This document shows positions 3,580 to 44,242 of a stretch of DNA of 64,000 nt, in pieces (position 1 is the first letter of the stretch; every line of letters starts with the position of its first letter). The notes below the pieces were generated by a model. It was not told the origin of the DNA. It saw only the letters and a list, made by a program, of their open reading frames with translations, and made no database searches. The position numbers were made by a program, and so were the translations under genes. The DNA comes from Candidatus Gastranaerophilales bacterium (GTDB lineage: Bacteria > Cyanobacteriota > Vampirovibrionia > Gastranaerophilales > Gastranaerophilaceae), in NCBI GenBank assembly GCA_944323985.1, contig CALUUP010000009.1:1-64000 (forward strand). The letters run 5' to 3'.

Positions 3580-5118
3580 ATGAAAAATAGAGTTTTATTA
3601 TGTATTATGGATGGTTGGGGATTTTCTAAAGGTTCTGAACAGTATGACGCTACTAAATTATCTCATCCTGTTCATGTGAATGAGCTTATTAAAGATTATC
3701 CGTCTATAAGAATTCATGCTGATGGTGAATATGTTGGTCTTCCTGAAGGGCAGATGGGAAATAGTGAAGTAGGTCACTTGAATTTAGGTGCCGGAAGAAT
3801 TGTTTATCAAGATTTGTCAAAAATTAACAATGCTATTAAAGATGGGTCTTTCTTTAAGAATGAAAAATTCTTAGAAGCTATCGAACATGCTAAAAAGAAT
3901 GATTCTTCTTTACATATATACGGATTAGTTTCAACCGGTGGTGTACATTCTTCTTTAGATCATTTATTAGCTTTAATACAATTAGCCGCAAAAGAAGGTT
4001 TAACAAAAGTATATGTACATGCCTTTTTAGATGGACGTGACACACCTCCTGCAAGTGCTTGTACTTATTTAGAAATTGTTGAAAATGAACTTAAAAAATA
4101 TAACTTGCCTCCTGTTGCTACTGTAATTGGTCGTTATTATATAATGGATAGAGATAATAGATGGGATAGAGTAGAAAAAGGTTATAATTGCTTATTATTA
4201 GGTGAAGGAGAAAAGGCTTCTTCTGCTATTGAAGCTGTAAAAAAATCTTATGATAAAGGTGAAACTGATGAATTTGTTTTACCGACTGCAATTGGTACGG
4301 TAGAAGAAGTAAATGCATCTAGAATTAAAGATAATGATGCTATTATATTCTTTAATTATCGTCCTGATAGAGCTAGAGAAATTACTAAAGCTATTAATTT
4401 TGTTGATTTTGACGGCTTTGATAGAAAGAAAGTACTTAAAAATATATATTATTGTACTATGACAAGTTATGAAGCTACTTTTACATACCCAGTTGCATTT
4501 CCTAAAACAAAATTAGTAAATATTTTGGGTGATGTATTAGAGGCTAATGGGGTAAATCAGTTCAGAACAGCTGAAACTGAAAAGTATGCTCATGTTACGT
4601 TCTTCTTTAATGGTGGTATTGATGAGCCAAAACCTCATGAAACTAGAAAACTAGTTGCTTCACCTAAAGTTGCAACCTATGATTTACAACCAGAAATGAG
4701 TGCTTATGAAGTTTGTGATAACGTATTAAAAGCAATTGACAATAAAGATTATGGTTTTATTTTGGTAAATTTTGCTAACCCTGATATGGTTGGTCATACT
4801 GGTGTGATTGAAGCTGCTACTAAAGCTTGTAAAGTAGTTGATGAATGTGTTGGTAAAATTGCAGAGAAATGTATAAAAGAAGGTGTTACAATGGTGTTGA
4901 CAGCTGATCATGGTAATGCTGAAGTTATGGTTGATGAAAGTACCGGTAAAACACAAACTGCTCATACTACTAATGAAGTTCCTTTTGTGGTAATTAATAG
5001 TCCAAAAGAGATTACCTTAAAAGATTCTGGAGCTTTATGTAATGTAGCACCAACTGTTTTAGAACTAATGGGTATAGAAAAACCTGCTGAAATGGATTGT
5101 GATAGTTTAATTAAATAA
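3580..5118 (+). CDS. gpmI: 2,3-bisphosphoglycerate-independent phosphoglycerate mutase
   Basis: Interconverts 3- and 2-phosphoglycerate in glycolysis using two Mn2+ ions and a phosphoserine intermediate. 512 residues, full length for the family. Metal-binding motif MDGWG (10-14, Asp11), catalytic Ser62 in GNSEVGHLN, the substrate-binding region DGRDTPP, NYRPDRAREI, and the C-terminal metal motif ADHGNAEVM. Strong GAGGAG ribosome binding site. First gene of a likely gpmI-SNF2-kinase unit, with 29 and 14 bp gaps. Not related to the cofactor-dependent GpmA type. Confidence 0.97.
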   Translation: MKNRVLLCIMDGWGFSKGSEQYDATKLSHPVHVNELIKDYPSIRIHADGEYVGLPEGQMGNSEVGHLNLGAGRIVYQDLSKINNAIKDGSFFKNEKFLEAIEHAKKNDSSLHIYGLVSTGGVHSSLDHLLALIQLAAKEGLTKVYVHAFLDGRDTPPASACTYLEIVENELKKYNLPPVATVIGRYYIMDRDNRWDRVEKGYNCLLLGEGEKASSAIEAVKKSYDKGETDEFVLPTAIGTVEEVNASRIKDNDAIIFFNYRPDRAREITKAINFVDFDGFDRKKVLKNIYYCTMTSYEATFTYPVAFPKTKLVNILGDVLEANGVNQFRTAETEKYAHVTFFFNGGIDEPKPHETRKLVASPKVATYDLQPEMSAYEVCDNVLKAIDNKDYGFILVNFANPDMVGHTGVIEAATKACKVVDECVGKIAEKCIKEGVTMVLTADHGNAEVMVDESTGKTQTAHTTNEVPFVVINSPKEITLKDSGALCNVAPTVLELMGIEKPAEMDCDSLIK

Positions 5119-5147: not shown

Positions 5148-8144
5148 ATGACAGATACAAAAGCTTTGGATATTGATTTATCATTAAAGAAAAATAATGT
5201 TGATGAATTCTTTTATAATCTTAGTGAAAATCCCAATGGTTTTAAAAATAAAGATTTTAGATATACATTAAGTTTAATATATCAGCTTGTTGAGGATGAA
5301 TTTGAGGGGATATTTTTATCTCCTAATTCTCCTGTAAGAAATACTGATTTTTATTTAATTAATGATGGAACAGAATCTAATCCAAAGCTTTCTTTTTTCG
5401 TGACTCCTACCAACAATTTTCAGTTTTATTTAAAATCTAAGGGCTCTATGTTTAGATTTTCTTCTAAAGAAGTAAATGGTCAAATTGGCTATATTATGCC
5501 TTTAGATTTAGTTTTAGATTATTTTGGAGGTTTTGGAGAAATTGTTGATTTTTCTTCTTTGACTGAATCTTTTGCTTATTTTAATAAGTTAACACATTTT
5601 GTGATGAAATTAATAGAAAAATTATATTTTATTCCTACTGTTCATAAAAGAGAAGGTGCTGGTGGAAGTTTTTTTAGAATAGTTTATGAACCGATTATTT
5701 CTAATAAAGAGTCAGCTAGAATTATTAATGAATTAGAAAAAAATTTACCTGAAAATATTTTTATAAAAGGCAATAAGCCAAAGGATTTTGTAGAGAGATT
5801 TGTAAGAGAGTATTTAAATTATTTAATTTACAAATTTTTGGGAATAAAAGCTTATAGATTTAAAGATGTTAAATCCGGACATTATATGTTAAAAGATTTG
5901 GAGCAAAAATCTTGTTTGAAAGGTAAGGATTTAGCTGAGAATTTTGCACAATGGTTTGATGAATTATATCTCGGTAAATATGATTTAATACCATTTTTTA
6001 AGGTTAATAAAATTAGTGATGATGAATTTGAATTAAAAATACATATTAAAAATAGAAATAATAATGAAACTATTTTAATAGATGAACTTTATCAAAAAGA
6101 AGAAATTTGGGGACTTGGTACTGATGATATTGGTAAAATAGTTGAAAAGCAATTAAATTATGCTCTAAGATATATGCCTGAATTAGAGACATTATTCGAA
6201 GATGAAGATAAGCTTGCTTTAAATTTAAATTTGAATGAAGTTTATAAAATAATTGCTCAAACTGCGTATTATTTACAAAAAGCTCAAATTGAAGTTATTT
6301 TACCGGAAGAATTGACTAATATTATTATTCCAAGAGCTTCTATTAATGCAAAAGTTAAGGCTGCAAGATCAGACGATTTAATGAATATCTTTAATACTGT
6401 TTCAAGTAGTGCTATTTCATTAGATGATATTTTAGAATTTTCTTATGAGGTATCTTTGGGAGATGAAAAGATATCATTAGAAGAGTTTAACAAATTAGTT
6501 AGTGAAAGTGATGGTTTAATTCAGTATAACGGAAAATATATATTAGTTGATAAAGCTGAAGGTTTAAAACTAGTCGAGCAGATTAAAAACGCTAATCATA
6601 AGAAAATGACAAGATTAGAGTTGATCCATGCTTCTATGTCTGGTCAACTTCAAAATTATGACTTTAATTATGATGAAGCTTATGCAAATGTGATTAAAGA
6701 TTTTGCAAAACCTGTTGAAGTAACTCAGCCGGAAGGCTTAAAAGGAGAATTGCGTGCATACCAACAGACAGGTTTAAAATGGCTATGGACTAATGTTTCA
6801 AAAGGTTTTGGATGCTGTATGGCAGATGATATGGGACTTGGTAAAACGATTCAAGTTATTAGTTTGATTTTAAAATTAAAAGAAGAAAATAAACTTAAAA
6901 ATCCAGTTCTAGTGATTTGTCCAACTACTTTGATGGGTAATTGGATGAAAGAGTTGCAGTTATTTGCTCCGGATTTAAAAACGGAAACTTATCACGGGTT
7001 AGATAGAAAACTTAATTTGAAATGTGATGTTATTTTAACTACATATGCAATAATGAGAATTGATGTAGAAGAAATGAAAAAGAATTCTTGGGGGATGATT
7101 GTTGTTGATGAAGCTCAAAATATTAAAAATCCTGATACTGCACAGACTCTTGCTATAAAAGCTCTAAAATCTGATGTAAAAATAGCAATGACAGGTACTC
7201 CTGTCGAAAATAGATTAACAGAGTTATGGAGTATTTTTGATTTTATTAATAAAGGTTATTTGGGTTCTTTGAAAGAATTTCAAAAGAGTTACGCTGTACC
7301 TATTGAAAGGTTTAAGGAAAAATCAAGAGCTTCAAAATTAAAATTATCAGTTTCACCTTTTGTTTTGAGAAGATTGAAAACTGATAAACATGTTATTTCT
7401 GATTTACCAGAAAAAATGGTTATGAATGATTATTGTTATCTTGCTAAATCTCAAGCTATTTTGTATGAAAAAACTCTTAATGAGATGATGGAAAAGATTA
7501 GCGGATTTACTGGTGTTAATAGAAGAGGTAATATTTTTAAGCTTATTACTGCACTAAAGCAAATTTGTAATCATCCTTATCAGTTTTTAAAAACTGGTGA
7601 AATGACAAAAGAGCTTTCTGGAAAGGCTGAAAAGTGTGTTTCTTTAGTACAGAGTATTATTGATAACAATGAAAAATCTCTTATTTTTACTCAATACAAA
7701 GAAATGGGAGATTTATTAGTTAAAATTTTAGCTGATGAATGTGGTTCTGAACCTTCATTCTTTCATGGTTCTTTAACCGTACCTCAAAGAGAGAAATTGA
7801 TTGAAGATTTTCAAAATAATGATGATAGAAAAGTTATGATACTTTCTTTAAAAGCTGGAGGAACAGGTTTGAACTTAACAAGTGCGACAAATGTTATTCA
7901 TTATGATTTATGGTGGAATCCAGCAGTAGAAGAACAAGCTACTGATAGAACTTATCGTATAGGTCAAGATAAAAATGTTATGGTGCATAGACTTATTACT
8001 TTAGGTACTTTTGAAGAAAAGATTGATGAGATGTTAAAATCTAAAAAAGAACTTGCTGATTTGGCAGTTTATGAAGGTGAAAAAATCATTACAGAACTCT
8101 CAGATCAAGAAATTTACGATATATTCTCTTTATCAGCAGGTTAG
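5148..8144 (+). CDS. SNF2-family DNA-dependent ATPase
   Basis: 998-residue Swi2/Snf2-type helicase-like motor that would translocate on double-stranded DNA and remodel bound proteins or the transcription complex. Residues 1-530 form an N-terminal region with no motif I can name. The SNF2 core follows: motif I ADDMGLGKT (559-567, Lys566), motif Ia CPTTLMGNW, motif II DEAQ (654-657), motif III MTGTPVENR, then the C-terminal RecA lobe with LIFTQYKEM, LSLKAGGTGLNL and the arginine-finger motif TDRTYRIGQ. Ribosome binding site AGAGAGAGG. No restriction or defence gene is adjacent, so a housekeeping transcription or repair role is more likely, but unproven. Confidence 0.9.
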   Translation: MTDTKALDIDLSLKKNNVDEFFYNLSENPNGFKNKDFRYTLSLIYQLVEDEFEGIFLSPNSPVRNTDFYLINDGTESNPKLSFFVTPTNNFQFYLKSKGSMFRFSSKEVNGQIGYIMPLDLVLDYFGGFGEIVDFSSLTESFAYFNKLTHFVMKLIEKLYFIPTVHKREGAGGSFFRIVYEPIISNKESARIINELEKNLPENIFIKGNKPKDFVERFVREYLNYLIYKFLGIKAYRFKDVKSGHYMLKDLEQKSCLKGKDLAENFAQWFDELYLGKYDLIPFFKVNKISDDEFELKIHIKNRNNNETILIDELYQKEEIWGLGTDDIGKIVEKQLNYALRYMPELETLFEDEDKLALNLNLNEVYKIIAQTAYYLQKAQIEVILPEELTNIIIPRASINAKVKAARSDDLMNIFNTVSSSAISLDDILEFSYEVSLGDEKISLEEFNKLVSESDGLIQYNGKYILVDKAEGLKLVEQIKNANHKKMTRLELIHASMSGQLQNYDFNYDEAYANVIKDFAKPVEVTQPEGLKGELRAYQQTGLKWLWTNVSKGFGCCMADDMGLGKTIQVISLILKLKEENKLKNPVLVICPTTLMGNWMKELQLFAPDLKTETYHGLDRKLNLKCDVILTTYAIMRIDVEEMKKNSWGMIVVDEAQNIKNPDTAQTLAIKALKSDVKIAMTGTPVENRLTELWSIFDFINKGYLGSLKEFQKSYAVPIERFKEKSRASKLKLSVSPFVLRRLKTDKHVISDLPEKMVMNDYCYLAKSQAILYEKTLNEMMEKISGFTGVNRRGNIFKLITALKQICNHPYQFLKTGEMTKELSGKAEKCVSLVQSIIDNNEKSLIFTQYKEMGDLLVKILADECGSEPSFFHGSLTVPQREKLIEDFQNNDDRKVMILSLKAGGTGLNLTSATNVIHYDLWWNPAVEEQATDRTYRIGQDKNVMVHRLITLGTFEEKIDEMLKSKKELADLAVYEGEKIITELSDQEIYDIFSLSAG

Positions 8145-28552: not shown

Positions 28553-29107
28553 ATGAACATAAACTCAATTAATAGCGTTAAAAATGTTAATGTATCTAAA
28601 AAAACAATAAATACAAAGCAATTATCACAAAAAATGTCGTTTAAAGGAAAACTTAACCTCTCTGACAATACAATTTCAAGTTTTAAAGATTCATTAAATA
28701 AATTAATTTTTGACACAACTTTGTCATATGACAATAATAAATACAACTCTATAACAGAATATGTAAAATCTGTTAATGTAAATATGAAAAATGGTAATAA
28801 AATAAACTTCAAATTATGGCAATTTCCTCGATATTCTTATAATGATAAAACTTTAGTCGAAATAAATAAAAAAACTAGTGTCATTATAGATAATACAACC
28901 GGAACTATTGATAAAATAGATAAGCCATGGTGGATGCCTAAATCGAAGATATATAAAAAATTAGAATTAGCAATAAAAACATTAAGTGAAAACTTAAATA
29001 ATCCATCAATAGTAAATAAACAAAGGAAGGTTGTAATAAAAGAAACGCAAGCTGGTAAAGATGATCGTGCTGAGCGTGATTTTTATGCGTTTATGCACCA
29101 TGGTTAA
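28553..29107 (+). CDS. Small lineage-specific protein with N-terminal SFKG motif
   Basis: 184 residues, not recognised as a named family. The first 25 residues are polar, rich in Asn/Lys/Ser (NINSINSVKNVNVSKK), then QKMSFKGKLN. The N-terminal x-S-F-K-G is a motif I associate with many short Gastranaerophilales proteins. The middle looks like a small alpha-beta fold (SVNVNMKNGNKINFKLWQF), and the end is basic (KQRKVVIKETQAGKDDR). No signal peptide or membrane helix. The 3' end overlaps the converging flavoprotein gene by 17 bases. Its leader shares a 12-base string with the gene at 46829. Confidence 0.7.
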   Translation: MNINSINSVKNVNVSKKTINTKQLSQKMSFKGKLNLSDNTISSFKDSLNKLIFDTTLSYDNNKYNSITEYVKSVNVNMKNGNKINFKLWQFPRYSYNDKTLVEINKKTSVIIDNTTGTIDKIDKPWWMPKSKIYKKLELAIKTLSENLNNPSIVNKQRKVVIKETQAGKDDRAERDFYAFMHHG

Positions 29108-30338
29108 GATATAAAAACTTTGCAAGTCCTTCCCCCATAGAAAAACAAGATGGAATTATTCTTAAAGCTGCTTGAGCTTCAAAGTCAGCAGAAATACACC
29201 TACCTATTACAAATAAATTATCTTTAACCATCAAAGATTCTATTGGTAGCTGGTATTCTTGGTAAACTTTTTCAAGCGTAGATTGATCCTTTTTATTTGA
29301 ATGAACATCTATCGGATAATTAGAAATTACTACTGGATGTTCAAATTTTTTACCAGTCCTTAAATCTTCAGCTGTATACAAATATTTTCCCTTAACCCTA
29401 TTCGAAACTCTTATGCCTAAAGAGTTTGCGATAGATGAAATATAAGAGTTTTCAAACCCTTTTAAGTATTTTTTACAGAAATTCGAAAGTCTTAGAATAC
29501 TCGCACGACCTTCAATATAAGGATTTAGAGAATTATCAAGAAGTCTTGGGCAGTTAAATGCAATAGAATCAGGAGTTCCAGCGACTGAAAATATTTGAAA
29601 ATAGTTAGAATCCTCTTCTGTAATAACGCCATCGTCTATAGCTCGCTTAAATAAAGGCTTTAAAGCCCAATTAACATTATTATCCCAAGTATAAGCAGTA
29701 GATAAGTAGATATTTCCGTTAAATTCACAACAGGTAGAAACATTTCTATCTTTATCAAACTCCATTATCCATTGAGAAAATTCTTTTGTATTTACCCCAG
29801 ACATTATAAATCTTAAATTAGTAGGTTGTAATTTTTTTTCTAAAAATTCACAATTTAAAAATTCACAAATTTTTGCATCACCGGTTGCATCTATAAGATA
29901 TTTCGTTTCGATAGGTTCTAATAAATTTTTAAACGACGATAAAATATTATCACCACATATCGTTACGATATATGATAATAAATTTTCTTCTATTTTTTCT
30001 ATTCTTGATTCGAATAAAATTTCTACATTAACCTCACATAACATTTTATCTAAAACTATTTTAGTTAATTCAGGGTTAAACCAACCTTTATTTCCATCAA
30101 TGTAAGTAATGGCACCTTTTATATTATCTAATTCTTCGTATAACTTGTTAAAAAAATCATTATTAATTGAATTATCAGAAGTTTTCATTGCGGGAATAAC
30201 AAGAGATGCAGTAATAGAACCACCTAGAAAAGAATTTTTTTCAACTAACAAAACTTTTAAGCCTAATTTAGCAGCAATATAAGCACAAGCACAGCCAGAA
30301 GTCCCACCACCAACTATAACTAAATCATATCTTTTCAT
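29091..30338 (-). CDS. FAD-dependent oxidoreductase (FAD_oxidored family)
   Basis: 415 residues. Dinucleotide-binding GGGTSG (10-15) in YDLVIVGGGTSGCACAY, then the Glu of VEKNSFLGG, a conserved YLIDATGDAKI, and the C-terminal FAD motif LFVIGRCISADFEAQAALR. The family (PF12831-like) holds flavin oxidoreductases with poorly known substrates. It lies 47 bp downstream of an MnmC-like methyltransferase, separated by 12-base tandem repeats that carry its ribosome binding sites. Co-transcribed with that methyltransferase, it could be part of tRNA wobble-uridine modification, but it is not of the usual MnmC oxidase type. Confidence 0.85.
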   Translation of the reverse strand: MKRYDLVIVGGGTSGCACAYIAAKLGLKVLLVEKNSFLGGSITASLVIPAMKTSDNSINNDFFNKLYEELDNIKGAITYIDGNKGWFNPELTKIVLDKMLCEVNVEILFESRIEKIEENLLSYIVTICGDNILSSFKNLLEPIETKYLIDATGDAKICEFLNCEFLEKKLQPTNLRFIMSGVNTKEFSQWIMEFDKDRNVSTCCEFNGNIYLSTAYTWDNNVNWALKPLFKRAIDDGVITEEDSNYFQIFSVAGTPDSIAFNCPRLLDNSLNPYIEGRASILRLSNFCKKYLKGFENSYISSIANSLGIRVSNRVKGKYLYTAEDLRTGKKFEHPVVISNYPIDVHSNKKDQSTLEKVYQEYQLPIESLMVKDNLFVIGRCISADFEAQAALRIIPSCFSMGEGLAKFLYLNHGA

Positions 30339-30343
30339 CTTTT

Positions 30344-30403
30344 ACCTCTTTATTTACCTCTTTATTTACCCCTTTATTTACCCTTTTATTTGCCCCTTGT
30401 TTT
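30344..30403 (-). repeat. Five 12-base tandem repeats, each resembling a ribosome binding site
   Basis: On the minus strand the unit is AAATAAAGAGGT, with variants AAATAAAGGGGT, AAATAAAAGGGT and, in the outermost copy, AAAACAAGGGGC. Four of the five copies hold a clear purine-rich Shine-Dalgarno-like core. The copy nearest the flavoprotein start (ATG 30338) is correctly spaced, and the stop codon of the methyltransferase gene lies in the outer copies. Copy-number change would leave both proteins intact but alter the translation signal. Confidence 0.85.
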
Positions 30404-31744
30404 TATGTACTTTGATGAACTCATTAAATTACTATGTTTATATTCATATTCTCTCAATTCTAAAATATCTTTATTACTAAAAGATAAATTTGGATCATGA
30501 TAAGGTATTCCAGCTTTAGTATTACATAAACCTATTTCGTATGAATTAAGCGGATATTTAATTTTTGATTTATCTTTTGAGGCTATCGTCCCCACAAATT
30601 TATTTAGTTTTTCATTATAAATTTTTCCTACATAAAATTTATTTTCTAGTAAAGTATTCCTAACCTGTACAGAATTAGAATAAGTTAAAAGCACCCCAGT
30701 AGGAGCAAGCCTTTTATACAATTCTGCTATAAACTCCATTGACCAAAGTTGAGGGGCTTTTGTATAAGTAAAAGCGTCTAAAAATATGCAGTCATATTGT
30801 TCATTTAAATCAAGAATGGTCTTTCGAGCATCATTTACATAAAAATTCACGTTAAACAGGCTCTGAGCGGTCTTAAAATTGATATTTTTATCACGAAACG
30901 ATAAATAGCAATAATATATATTATGTAAAAAGGTGGATAAATTTAACTTAGATGAAGAATTATATCCCCAAAAATTATTAAACTTTGCATATTTTATAAG
31001 AGAATTATCAAAAAAAGATCTATTTTCTTTTTTATAGACTATTTTATTTAAATCTTCTTTTATAAATTCCTCTTCTAACAAATCAAATAAGATATTAATA
31101 AGTATATAGTTGACATATGGATGAATTTTATACTCTTTATCAAGAGTCATCTCTTTAAATTTAATTTCTAATAATTCGTTAATTTCTTTTCTATTTTTAG
31201 GTTGAAAATATTTATAAATTTTAGAGAAAGCTTTTTTTAATTTATAATAAGATTCGAAACAATTAAAAATTCCTGGAACAAATAAATCAAAAACTTCATC
31301 AAAGGTTTTTATAGTTTTAAAAAAAGGTGATAATTTTACCAGCTCAGGATTAATTTCTAAACAATCAATAATAATTTTTTTATTATCATCTATCGTATCG
31401 TTATATAGTAATAATTTTCTTGCTTTTTTCCTCAAAATTTTATTAACACCTATCGAAACGATATTTAATAATTTTATAAAATATATTTTTATAAAATTAT
31501 TTTTGACTTTTTTATAATTTTGAATATAAAAACTCATTAAAGCTTTTGTATTATATCCAATTCCATAACAAATATCTAAAACTTTAATATTATTTTTATT
31601 AATATCATTTAATCCTGAAGGAATAACGAATTTTTCCCAAGCTTCAGTTAAAGCCCCGAATTTTGAATGAAAAACATCCTTATCAGCGTAAGAATAGAGC
31701 CCAATAGAGCCATCTTGAGTATAATATGGTTCATAATCCCTCAT
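30386..31744 (-). CDS. MnmC-like tRNA-modifying methyltransferase domain protein
   Basis: 452 residues from ATG 31744. The ORF is open upstream, but a strong leaderless-type promoter points to this start. N-terminal DYEPYYTQDGSIGLYS and the SAM-binding VLDICYGIGYNTKA, then IDCLEINPELV, and a C-terminal block (VNFYVNDARKTI, YDCIFLDAFTYTKAPQLWS, GVLLTYSNSVQVRNTL) match the MnmC methyltransferase (DUF752) domain, which finishes mnm5-uridine in tRNA. About 200 Lys/Ile-rich residues are inserted between the SAM motifs, much longer than usual. The flavoprotein gene follows, as in a split MnmC. Confidence 0.7.
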   Translation of the reverse strand: MRDYEPYYTQDGSIGLYSYADKDVFHSKFGALTEAWEKFVIPSGLNDINKNNIKVLDICYGIGYNTKALMSFYIQNYKKVKNNFIKIYFIKLLNIVSIGVNKILRKKARKLLLYNDTIDDNKKIIIDCLEINPELVKLSPFFKTIKTFDEVFDLFVPGIFNCFESYYKLKKAFSKIYKYFQPKNRKEINELLEIKFKEMTLDKEYKIHPYVNYILINILFDLLEEEFIKEDLNKIVYKKENRSFFDNSLIKYAKFNNFWGYNSSSKLNLSTFLHNIYYCYLSFRDKNINFKTAQSLFNVNFYVNDARKTILDLNEQYDCIFLDAFTYTKAPQLWSMEFIAELYKRLAPTGVLLTYSNSVQVRNTLLENKFYVGKIYNEKLNKFVGTIASKDKSKIKYPLNSYEIGLCNTKAGIPYHDPNLSFSNKDILELREYEYKHSNLMSSSKYIKTRGK

Positions 31745-31751
31745 AATGCAC

Positions 31752-31780
31752 ATTATAACAGGATTTAAGCCATATTGCAA
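31752..31780 (-). promoter_or_regulatory. Promoter for a leaderless mRNA (methyltransferase gene)
   Basis: Minus strand: TTGCAA (31775-31780), 17-bp spacer, TATAAT (31752-31757), then 7 bases to ATG 31744. No ribosome binding site. Confidence 0.7.
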
Positions 31781-31787
31781 GGAGTTT

Positions 31788-31817
31788 TTGACTTTTAACT
31801 TATAAAAAGTATATAAT
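31788..31817 (+). promoter_or_regulatory. Promoter of the secreted HExxH protein
   Basis: TTGACT (31788-31793), 18-bp spacer, TATAAT (31812-31817). Start near 31824, and AGAGG before ATG 31840. Divergent from the methyltransferase promoter, with which it shares the control region. Confidence 0.6.
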
Positions 31818-31839
31818 ACTATAATAAGAGGATAGAGGT

Positions 31840-32508
31840 ATGAAAAAAATATTATTATTAGGTTTAATAACACTTATTGCTTGGGGTTCAGCCAATGCTA
31901 AGAACTATATAGAAGTCCCATCTAATGTTGAATTACCTAAAAAATACACACAAGAATATATTGATAGTATTTCTGATGAATACAAGGAGATTTCTGACGA
32001 ACAAATTTTTCATGTTGCATTAGACATGTTAAAAGATACTTCAGGAGAATTTTCCAGAAAAGCTTTATTAGGTTACAATGTCACACAAAAACCTGTAAAA
32101 GTTATGTTTAAAGATTTATCAGAAATAAACGAAGCTTATTCAACCTTTGATGCTGTTGGTTGGAAAAAAAGAGGAAGGCTATATGTTTATATAAACCCTA
32201 AACATGAATATGCACCACCAGGAGCTTTAGCAGCTTTACTGGCTCATGAAGCTTTACATCAAGACGAATACAATTCTTTAAGTGAAGAAACTTATGCCTG
32301 GACAATGGAAGCTATCGTTTGGACAGAAATTTTAAAACAATATCCTGAATCTAACAATTTAGAATCAGCTCTAGTAACAAGAGAAAACATACTTAAACAA
32401 TTACTAGAAAAAGGTAATCACACTAATAAATACATAAAAAAGACAGTATATGCCAATGAAGGATATAAAAACTTACCATTAACATCACCCGGATTTAGTA
32501 ATCAATAA
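31840..32508 (+). CDS. Secreted putative zinc metallopeptidase (HExxH)
   Basis: 222 residues with a signal peptide (MKKILLLGLITLIAWGSANA, cleavage after residue 20). The motif LLAHEALHQDEY gives HExxH at 136-140, the zinc-binding and catalytic core of many metallopeptidases. Glu149/Glu150 in SEETYAW may supply the third ligand. I cannot place it in a named peptidase family. Ribosome binding site AGAGG. The protein ends with a loosely conserved tail (NLPLTSPGF). It would act in the periplasm or outside the cell. Confidence 0.65.
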   Translation: MKKILLLGLITLIAWGSANAKNYIEVPSNVELPKKYTQEYIDSISDEYKEISDEQIFHVALDMLKDTSGEFSRKALLGYNVTQKPVKVMFKDLSEINEAYSTFDAVGWKKRGRLYVYINPKHEYAPPGALAALLAHEALHQDEYNSLSEETYAWTMEAIVWTEILKQYPESNNLESALVTRENILKQLLEKGNHTNKYIKKTVYANEGYKNLPLTSPGFSNQ

Positions 32509-42880: not shown

Positions 42881-44242
42881 TCATAATTTTTTTGGATTTT
42901 TAATTTTTAAAACACCATTCACATTTTGCGGCTTTCCAGTAACGCCAGAACAAGATATCACTGAATCTATATTATTATCTGAAGTCAATGCACAATATAC
43001 TTGCTTATAAGTATAGCTTGGGATTGGAGTATATTTGCCACCACCTGTAGCTCTTCCAACAAGACCATTATCAATATATGTTGGAAGTAAATCCTGACGT
43101 TCTTGTAATTTCACATCACTTATTGAATCAACAGGTATTAAATAACTTATATTATTAACTTTTGTATATATTAAAACAACACTTGCTTTACCATCATTTG
43201 TTCGAGTTTTTCGTTGTGGGACTTCCATTGTAAAACAAATATACGTTTTATAATTCACATTCTCTGAATTATAATAATATTTAATACCATTTGAAGCTTC
43301 AATATATTTATCACCACCTTTTACTGGTTTTGGTACATCATCAAATACTGGAGGTTCGGTTCCGCCAGAGCCACCATCAGATCCGCCAGAGCCGCCATCA
43401 GATCCGCCAGAGCCGCCATCAGATCCACCAGAACCACCGTCAGATCCGCCAGAACCACCAGATCCGCCAGAACCACCGCCAGGTCCAGCGAATGGAGGAT
43501 AAGAACCGCCACCACCTGGCAACAATCCACTATTACCATCACCTTTTTCTGGAATACCTATTGGAGGTTTATTACCACCAGTCCAATCAATATTACCAGA
43601 ACCACCTGAATTACCAGTATTATTTGAAGGTGGAATTATAATAGTATCTTTTATTTCGTCTCTATTATTTCCACCATTATTTGATGGAGGATTCAAAGGT
43701 CTTGTAGGATCTCCATACTCAAAACCTGGAGGAGGTGGAGTATTACCTATACCTCCAGTCGTAGAACCTGGCCCATAAGAACCACCTGAACTTGAACCTG
43801 GTCTGCTAGGAGAACTACCACCAAAGGAACCACCAGAGCTTGAACCAGGCCTGCTACTAGAACTACCGCCAAAAGAACCACCAGAGCTTGATCCTGGTCT
43901 ACTACCACCAAAAGAGCTACCTGAACCAGGACGGGATATTGTTAATGCTAAATAATTTTGCATAGGAGGTATACCGTCTAAATTTAAATGAGCCGTTTTT
44001 ATTTCTGAACCAAACAATTTAGCAACACCATCTAACAATTCTTGATTTGTCTGATTTTCTTTTCGTGATTCTGTTTCTAGTAATGCATTATATAAATTCA
44101 TATAACCATTATAATAATATAATCCATATGCCCTATCTGTTGAATATTTCGATAATATTAACCCCATAGCAGAAACGATACCTATTATACCAACACATAA
44201 TAGAATCTCAGCTAAAGTAAATGCTTTTTTCTTTTTTTTCAT
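42881..44242 (-). CDS. Type IV prepilin-like protein with a Gly/Ser/Pro-rich insert
   Basis: 453 residues. N-terminal prepilin signal KKKKKAFTLAEILL: a basic leader, Ala at -1 instead of Gly, then FTLAE with Glu at +5 and a 20-residue hydrophobic helix. Normal pilins are 130-200 residues. Here about 215 residues (about 105-320) of low complexity, including SRPGSSSGGSFGGSS-like units and GGSGGSD heptads, split the head domain (LNLDGIPPMQNYLALTIS..) from the C-terminal part (VNYKTYICFTMEVPQRK..). The end has conserved Cys residues. AGGAGA ribosome binding site. Long, flexible surface protein or pseudopilin. Confidence 0.85.
   Translation of the reverse strand: MKKKKKAFTLAEILLCVGIIGIVSAMGLILSKYSTDRAYGLYYYNGYMNLYNALLETESRKENQTNQELLDGVAKLFGSEIKTAHLNLDGIPPMQNYLALTISRPGSGSSFGGSRPGSSSGGSFGGSSSSRPGSSSGGSFGGSSPSRPGSSSGGSYGPGSTTGGIGNTPPPPGFEYGDPTRPLNPPSNNGGNNRDEIKDTIIIPPSNNTGNSGGSGNIDWTGGNKPPIGIPEKGDGNSGLLPGGGGSYPPFAGPGGGSGGSGGSGGSDGGSGGSDGGSGGSDGGSGGSDGGSGGTEPPVFDDVPKPVKGGDKYIEASNGIKYYYNSENVNYKTYICFTMEVPQRKTRTNDGKASVVLIYTKVNNISYLIPVDSISDVKLQERQDLLPTYIDNGLVGRATGGGKYTPIPSYTYKQVYCALTSDNNIDSVISCSGVTGKPQNVNGVLKIKNPKKL
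43362..43445 (-). repeat. Four 21-base tandem repeats encoding GGSGGSD
   Basis: Units at 43362, 43383, 43404 and 43425, each of 21 bases, two of them identical. A shorter remnant continues to 43480. In frame within the prepilin gene, so copy-number change alters linker length without a frameshift. Locally GC-rich. Confidence 0.9.

Follow-up and report, generated by a model that had tools for sequence, protein, structure and literature searches.

A 12-base tandem array between a methyltransferase and a flavoprotein gene of a Gastranaerophilales bacterium: a probable local expansion of a word repeated across the lineage

The gap between a methyltransferase gene and a flavoprotein gene of a Candidatus Gastranaerophilales bacterium (contig CALUUP010000009.1) consists of short tandem repeats that resemble Shine-Dalgarno (SD) sequences. 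The question thus raised is whether the repeats regulate translation of the downstream gene, or whether their position at an SD site is one instance of a process acting on the DNA of the lineage more generally. We addressed it using the window (the whole stretch of 64,000 nucleotides analysed), searches and sampled stretches of the remaining genome, and genomes of the same genus and order.

Results

Tandem Repeats Finder (TRF) confirms a 12-bp tandem array at 30341-30398 (period 12, 4.8 copies, 91% matches, score 88). The five 12-base repeats reported before the flavoprotein gene by a first-pass annotation are therefore real, its coordinates (30344-30403) being off by a few bases relative to the array at 30340-30396. 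Nine-base cores are separated by AAA spacers, and the features concerned are as follows.

30386..31873, minus strand: upstream ORF of 495 amino acids with a PF05430 (Methyltransf_30) domain and the C terminus ...KTRGK (ORF and domain)
30386..30388, minus strand: methyltransferase stop codon TAA, within unit 1 (sequence and ORF)
30340..30396, minus strand: the array, five 12-bp units in tandem with core GGGGTAAAT or a variant of it and AAA as spacer (sequence and TRF)
30396-30388, minus strand: core of unit 1, GGGGCAAAT (sequence)
30384-30376, minus strand: core of unit 2, AGGGTAAAT (sequence)
30372-30364, minus strand: core of unit 3, GGGGTAAAT (sequence)
30360-30352, minus strand: core of unit 4, GAGGTAAAT (sequence)
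30348-30340, minus strand: core of unit 5, GAGGTAAAA (sequence)
30340..30350, minus strand: last unit, AAGAGGTAAAA, the sole copy at SD distance from ATG 30338 (sequence; pairing with an assumed anti-SD)
29091..30338, minus strand: downstream ORF of 415 amino acids, an FAD-dependent oxidoreductase (PF12831; the flavoprotein), present in relatives, those with names at this locus being Candidatus Gastranaerophilales (ORF and domain)
29790..29798, minus strand: single GGGGTAAAT within the flavoprotein gene, codons of SGVN (sequence)
4549..4557, plus strand: single GGGGTAAAT within an ORF, frame GVN (sequence)

The two genes are codirectional on the minus strand and constitute a two-gene operon, the flavoprotein ATG lying at 30338-30336. 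All 47 nucleotides from the methyltransferase stop to the flavoprotein start are array, which ends 1 nucleotide ahead of the ATG and so has the location expected of a phase-variable repeat at a ribosome binding site, with signals upstream of it and the start codon downstream. The stop in unit 1 and the SD in the last unit bear out the suggestion of a slippage-type array spanning both signals; the methyltransferase frame runs into further TAA codons in later units. Elsewhere in the window, an Rfam scan returned a tRNA as its only match, and an ORF on the minus strand (42881-44242) has a pilin-like N terminus and long Gly/Ser repeats (TRF rows 43361-43905).

If the array were a chance microsatellite at an SD site, without wider meaning, a TRF score of 88 should be attainable at random, and it was reached somewhere in 2 of 60 order-2 surrogates of the window; the score alone is thus less decisive as evidence against chance. 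However, only two period-12 arrays with a TRF score of at least 60 occur in 224 kb of the genome (the window plus 160 kb of contig C1), and since both have the consensus TTTACCCCTTTA, the array is more than chance. Searching the genome with the array located the unit also at C1:116483-116531, C34:7280, C40:10615 and C8:61013; on the basis of ORF reading, the C1 array forms the end of a membrane protein gene and the SD of a yjbQ-like gene, and that on C34 lies at a flgC-fliE-like junction. Of the 65 genomes examined from the genus, 63 have the two-unit tandem pattern, with the reversed-pattern control near zero. A chance origin is rendered very improbable by this recurrence of one consensus at several loci and genus-wide, with clean reversed controls. 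Across the order the pattern is restricted to 57 of 286 genomes, mainly those of this genus, of genera g31, g37 and g44, and of one word-rich member of g23.

The core is itself in excess. Among all 9-mers, GGGGTAAAT is the most strongly over-represented in the contigs sampled from three word-rich genomes, i.e. this genome (15 copies versus 1.5-1.8 expected), G020 (28 versus 1.4-1.9) and G077 (21 versus 1.4), and is not the top 9-mer in those of G064, G167 and G039. The whole genome studied here has 71 copies, compared with 14 of the reversed word. Counts within the genus extend from 17 (G006) to 391 (G014); they are about 7-31 in most other genera, such that most sister genera and two genomes of the same genus (17 and 28 copies) are at background. 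The excess is present on both strands and in coding sequence, where it goes beyond what protein sequence and codon usage account for: the three word-rich genomes have 35 coding copies versus about 5.3 after synonymous-codon shuffling (about 6.6-fold), and two word-poor genomes have 2 each. Word load and array load are correlated (rho 0.84). The junction array is probably one local expansion of GGGGTAAAT, a word that is carried in excess and tandemly repeated across the lineage.

We collected 74 distinct arrays via the core, a procedure biased towards intact cores and partly corrected for this. Gaps of 3 nucleotides between cores, corresponding to the 12-bp period, account for 133 of 175; around exact cores, another core occurs 11 times at +12 and 8 times at -12, where 0.12 are expected, and further cores at +/-24 are also far above expectation. 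Conservation is higher in the core than in the spacer, including after correction for the search threshold. Inside ORFs lie 45 of the 74 arrays, mostly in the frame GGG-GTA-AAT and encoding Gly-Val-Asn-x (GVNx) repeats, in proteins as unrelated as TrmD, MiaB, IlvD, AroA, CoaBC, HydF, LpxK, TatD, an alcohol dehydrogenase, phage portal proteins and others. Spacing is looser in the non-coding arrays, many of which begin at a stop codon, often one supplied by the array itself; about six of the 74, judging from the listings, touch a start codon.

The strong orientation bias of the in-gene arrays (43 sense, 2 antisense) led us to consider, and reject, a transcription-coupled orientation. A simpler explanation is selection for the peptide that the arrays encode, because codirectional intergenic arrays divide just 12 to 4 and the majority of these are in contact with a stop codon.

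Further forms of the repeat were noted. In six genomes, phage portal-type proteins (SU10_portal/head-tail adaptor) have GVNx arrays that share one position near the C terminus and vary in number and spacer (L199, L204, L209, L213, L070 and L052). Tandem repeats with a longer unit, about 50-94 bp and in each case starting with GGGGTAAAT, occur in G032 (L291 8400-9000, L292 2100-2450, L294 450-800 and L296 620-860) and adjoin hairpin-like dispersed repeats (GTCATCCTCA...GATCCAGC). G014 has a longer dispersed repeat, GTGCGGAAAAAGTCGAAAAGGGGTAAATATGGGGGTAAATATAACTCCACGAAGC, which holds two units and is often near contig ends (L152, L160, L161 and L169); its left end is common to L065 and L071. Downstream of the flavoprotein gene, L094 has a MITE-like inverted repeat (6243-6347; AGTGTAAAAGGGGT ... 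ACCCCTTTTACACT, about 90 bp apart) with GGGGTAAAT nearby.

Comparison with relatives, at one genome per species, reveals copy-number change between near species at the junction and at other sites. The junction has five units here, three irregular units held in common by two relatives (L074 and L113; AAGGGGTAAATAGGGGTAAACAAGGGGTGATAGATG), one in another (L124; AGGGGTAAT) and none elsewhere. In most relatives, the methyltransferase and flavoprotein genes overlap or nearly do so, with one SD in the methyltransferase tail, e.g. AAGAGGTGATAATG. In all three array carriers the methyltransferase ends in unit 1 with KTRGK. Because copy number differs between near species, we infer that an SD-like seed gave rise to the array in a common ancestor of the carrier species and that its length changed later. 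The first-pass annotation had proposed that such changes disrupt neither protein; this holds to the extent that, between near species, both ORFs are intact.

Insertion relative to orthologues is directly apparent at three sites only, i.e. this junction, TrmD and the yjbQ junction. TrmD of relatives has a single native YEGVNK-like stretch, once spelled GAAGGGGTAAATAAA, where that of G057 has five GVN-like units (GVNKGVNKGVNKGGKGVN). The yjbQ SD junction has four units here, is decayed in G081, whose protein is 93% identical, and has none in G086 and G082. Such differences between species suggest that the arrays may be unstable at present. At the single GGGGTAAAT inside the flavoprotein gene, relatives have substitutions and no insertion; an apparent insertion in the G023 flavoprotein orthologue proved to be a run of N only.

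With respect to ribosome binding, pairing with the anti-SD is possible for most units, with energies of about -6.6 to -7.8 kcal/mol. These values assume the canonical 16S tail, for which the pattern used gave no match. The proposal that the units are ribosome binding sites is consistent with the pairing, but only the last unit lies at SD distance, and no separate start codon accompanies the outer units. Since GGGGTAAAT itself resembles an SD, any array of it will do so; the likeness of this one to a series of ribosome landing sites is due to where the copy sits.

The further proposal was of a translational rheostat, in which the repeats act as extra ribosome standby or SD sites and the amount of flavoprotein made per methyltransferase is adjusted by slippage. 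The possible pairing of most units, the location of three of the five arrays of this genome at gene junctions adjoining a start codon, and the variation in copy number between species are in keeping with this idea, for which SD-likeness is the sole positive evidence. However, one unit alone is suitably placed, and its pairing (-7.1 kcal/mol) is not stronger than that of the single SD in array-less relatives (-6.5 to -7.7 kcal/mol); moreover, the 74 arrays are predominantly within genes or at gene ends, with few at start codons. We therefore do not retain the rheostat, which we judge to be decidedly unlikely.

Discussion

The reading that we prefer, and consider likely, is that the array arose locally from a GGGGTAAAT-like seed, through tandem expansion by 12 bp at a time, and is part of a lineage-wide family. 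The 9-mer is kept in excess at the DNA level in this genus and in a small number of related genera from the same taxonomic family; wherever it arises, whether at SD sites, Gly-Val-Asn codons, gene ends or in intergenic DNA, it tends to be repeated in tandem with a 9+3 base period, probably by slippage or by short tandem duplication. The seed at this locus would have been the stop codon/SD junction of the operon. Within genes, arrays may survive because 12 bp preserves the frame and GVNx is tolerated, such that selection on frame and peptide would filter expansions of a driven word. At the junction, extra units would merely lengthen the gap to the start codon, with the last unit retaining the SD function; for this reason flavoprotein output is probably little changed.

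Two observations sit less easily with expansion from a seed. Slippage alone fails to explain why GGGGTAAAT is enriched in single copies and not just in tandem, and the large units starting with the word in some genomes imply that expansion by 12 bp is only part of the process. The excess could be maintained by a motif-specific enzyme or by a bias in repair, or because the word serves for binding or uptake.

GGGGTAAAT could be a DNA uptake sequence, or a comparable recognition word of USS/DUS or HIP1 type, propagated by molecular drive and with the arrays as a by-product or a stronger signal. This would, if right, account for the excess that seed expansion leaves unexplained. As expected of an uptake sequence, which should be the most over-represented 9-12-mer on both strands with coding sequence included, GGGGTAAAT heads the 9-mers of the word-rich genomes sampled; its coding excess over synonymous expectation, its hundreds of copies in some genomes and the presence of the ComEC family in this genome also accord with such a role. 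However, ComEC is present in 32 of 32 genomes, word-rich or word-poor, and was thus discarded as a discriminator, and many genomes, including this one, fall below the copy numbers of known uptake sequences. Nor are 12-bp tandem arrays known as a feature of uptake sequences. We regard a recognition word as possible, though doubtful.

Alternatively, a mobile element or its enzyme, e.g. an IS200-like/RAYT Y1 transposase, could scatter GGGGTAAAT. One Y1 (RAYT-like) transposase gene of G020 (L178 5700-6750; G020:C2:105.7-106.75 kb) is flanked on both sides by the word, which also lies within the longer dispersed repeats of G032 and G014. On the other hand, word-rich G014, G005 and G076 gave no Y1_Tnp match, on which account a REP/RAYT system, i.e. 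a Y1 transposase with its repeats, was rejected, and Y1 copy number is uncorrelated with the word (rho 0.28, p 0.13). The two-unit pattern occurs in only 14 viral contigs, none of them enriched; a phage origin was likewise rejected, although phage portal genes do carry arrays. An element-borne spread appears unlikely.

Beyond these possibilities, we tentatively propose, with no more confidence than in a recognition word, that a dedicated process (an enzyme, an RNA template or a repair bias) recognises GGGGTAAAT and adds or duplicates adjacent 9+3 base units. If so, one DNA word would be written repeatedly into housekeeping genes, as well as into the present junction.

A literature search for GGGGTAAAT found no paper on this repeat among the matches listed; several known systems share some of its properties. 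In marine Beggiatoaceae, and in some Cyanobacteria and Bacteroidetes, direct repeats of the heptamer TAACTGA likewise involve a short word placed head to tail at many sites and patchy across lineages, often near start codons, with a translational role proposed and the cause unknown (PMC4679880). Their unit has 7 bases and, in the best studied genome, is mostly intergenic beside start codons (PMC4679880), whereas here a 9+3 unit of 12-base period is mostly in frame inside genes and single copies are also in excess. HIP1 of cyanobacteria is similarly the most over-represented genome word, with low frequency in some relatives, but HIP1 (GCGATCGC) is a palindrome linked to methyltransferases (PMC4390886), whereas GGGGTAAAT is not self-complementary and forms tandem arrays. 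The uptake sequences of Pasteurellaceae and Neisseriaceae are, like GGGGTAAAT, non-palindromic words in excess on both strands, with an in-gene reading-frame preference (PMC2346458). The TAACTGA repeats are thus nearest in style, and HIP1 and uptake sequences nearest in word excess; as far as the papers show, none of the three combines word excess, tandem repetition and in-frame repeats in conserved genes.

The STRR sequences of filamentous cyanobacteria, in the sister group, are also dispersed short tandem repeat families, comprising largely intergenic heptamers of different sequence. Rickettsia palindromic elements are in frame in unrelated protein genes, as are the arrays described here, but are longer and palindromic, whereas the present unit is a non-palindromic one of four codons. 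PARCEL repeats likewise occur in frame within genes for unrelated proteins, with longer palindromic units (PMC2996958).

In an uncultured bacterium related to cyanobacteria, a single nine-base word combines a DNA-level excess with tandem expansion inside conserved enzymes. It thereby joins two puzzles, that of driven words (HIP1 and uptake sequences) and that of short tandem repeat families (TAACTGA). It also counsels caution against assuming a regulatory role whenever an array in these genomes resembles SDs. The occurrence of word-rich and word-poor genomes within one genus allows their comparison. Other over-represented words, GACGGAACAGACGGTACAG-like, occur in G167 (L307-L311), which belongs to a genus without GGGGTAAAT excess.
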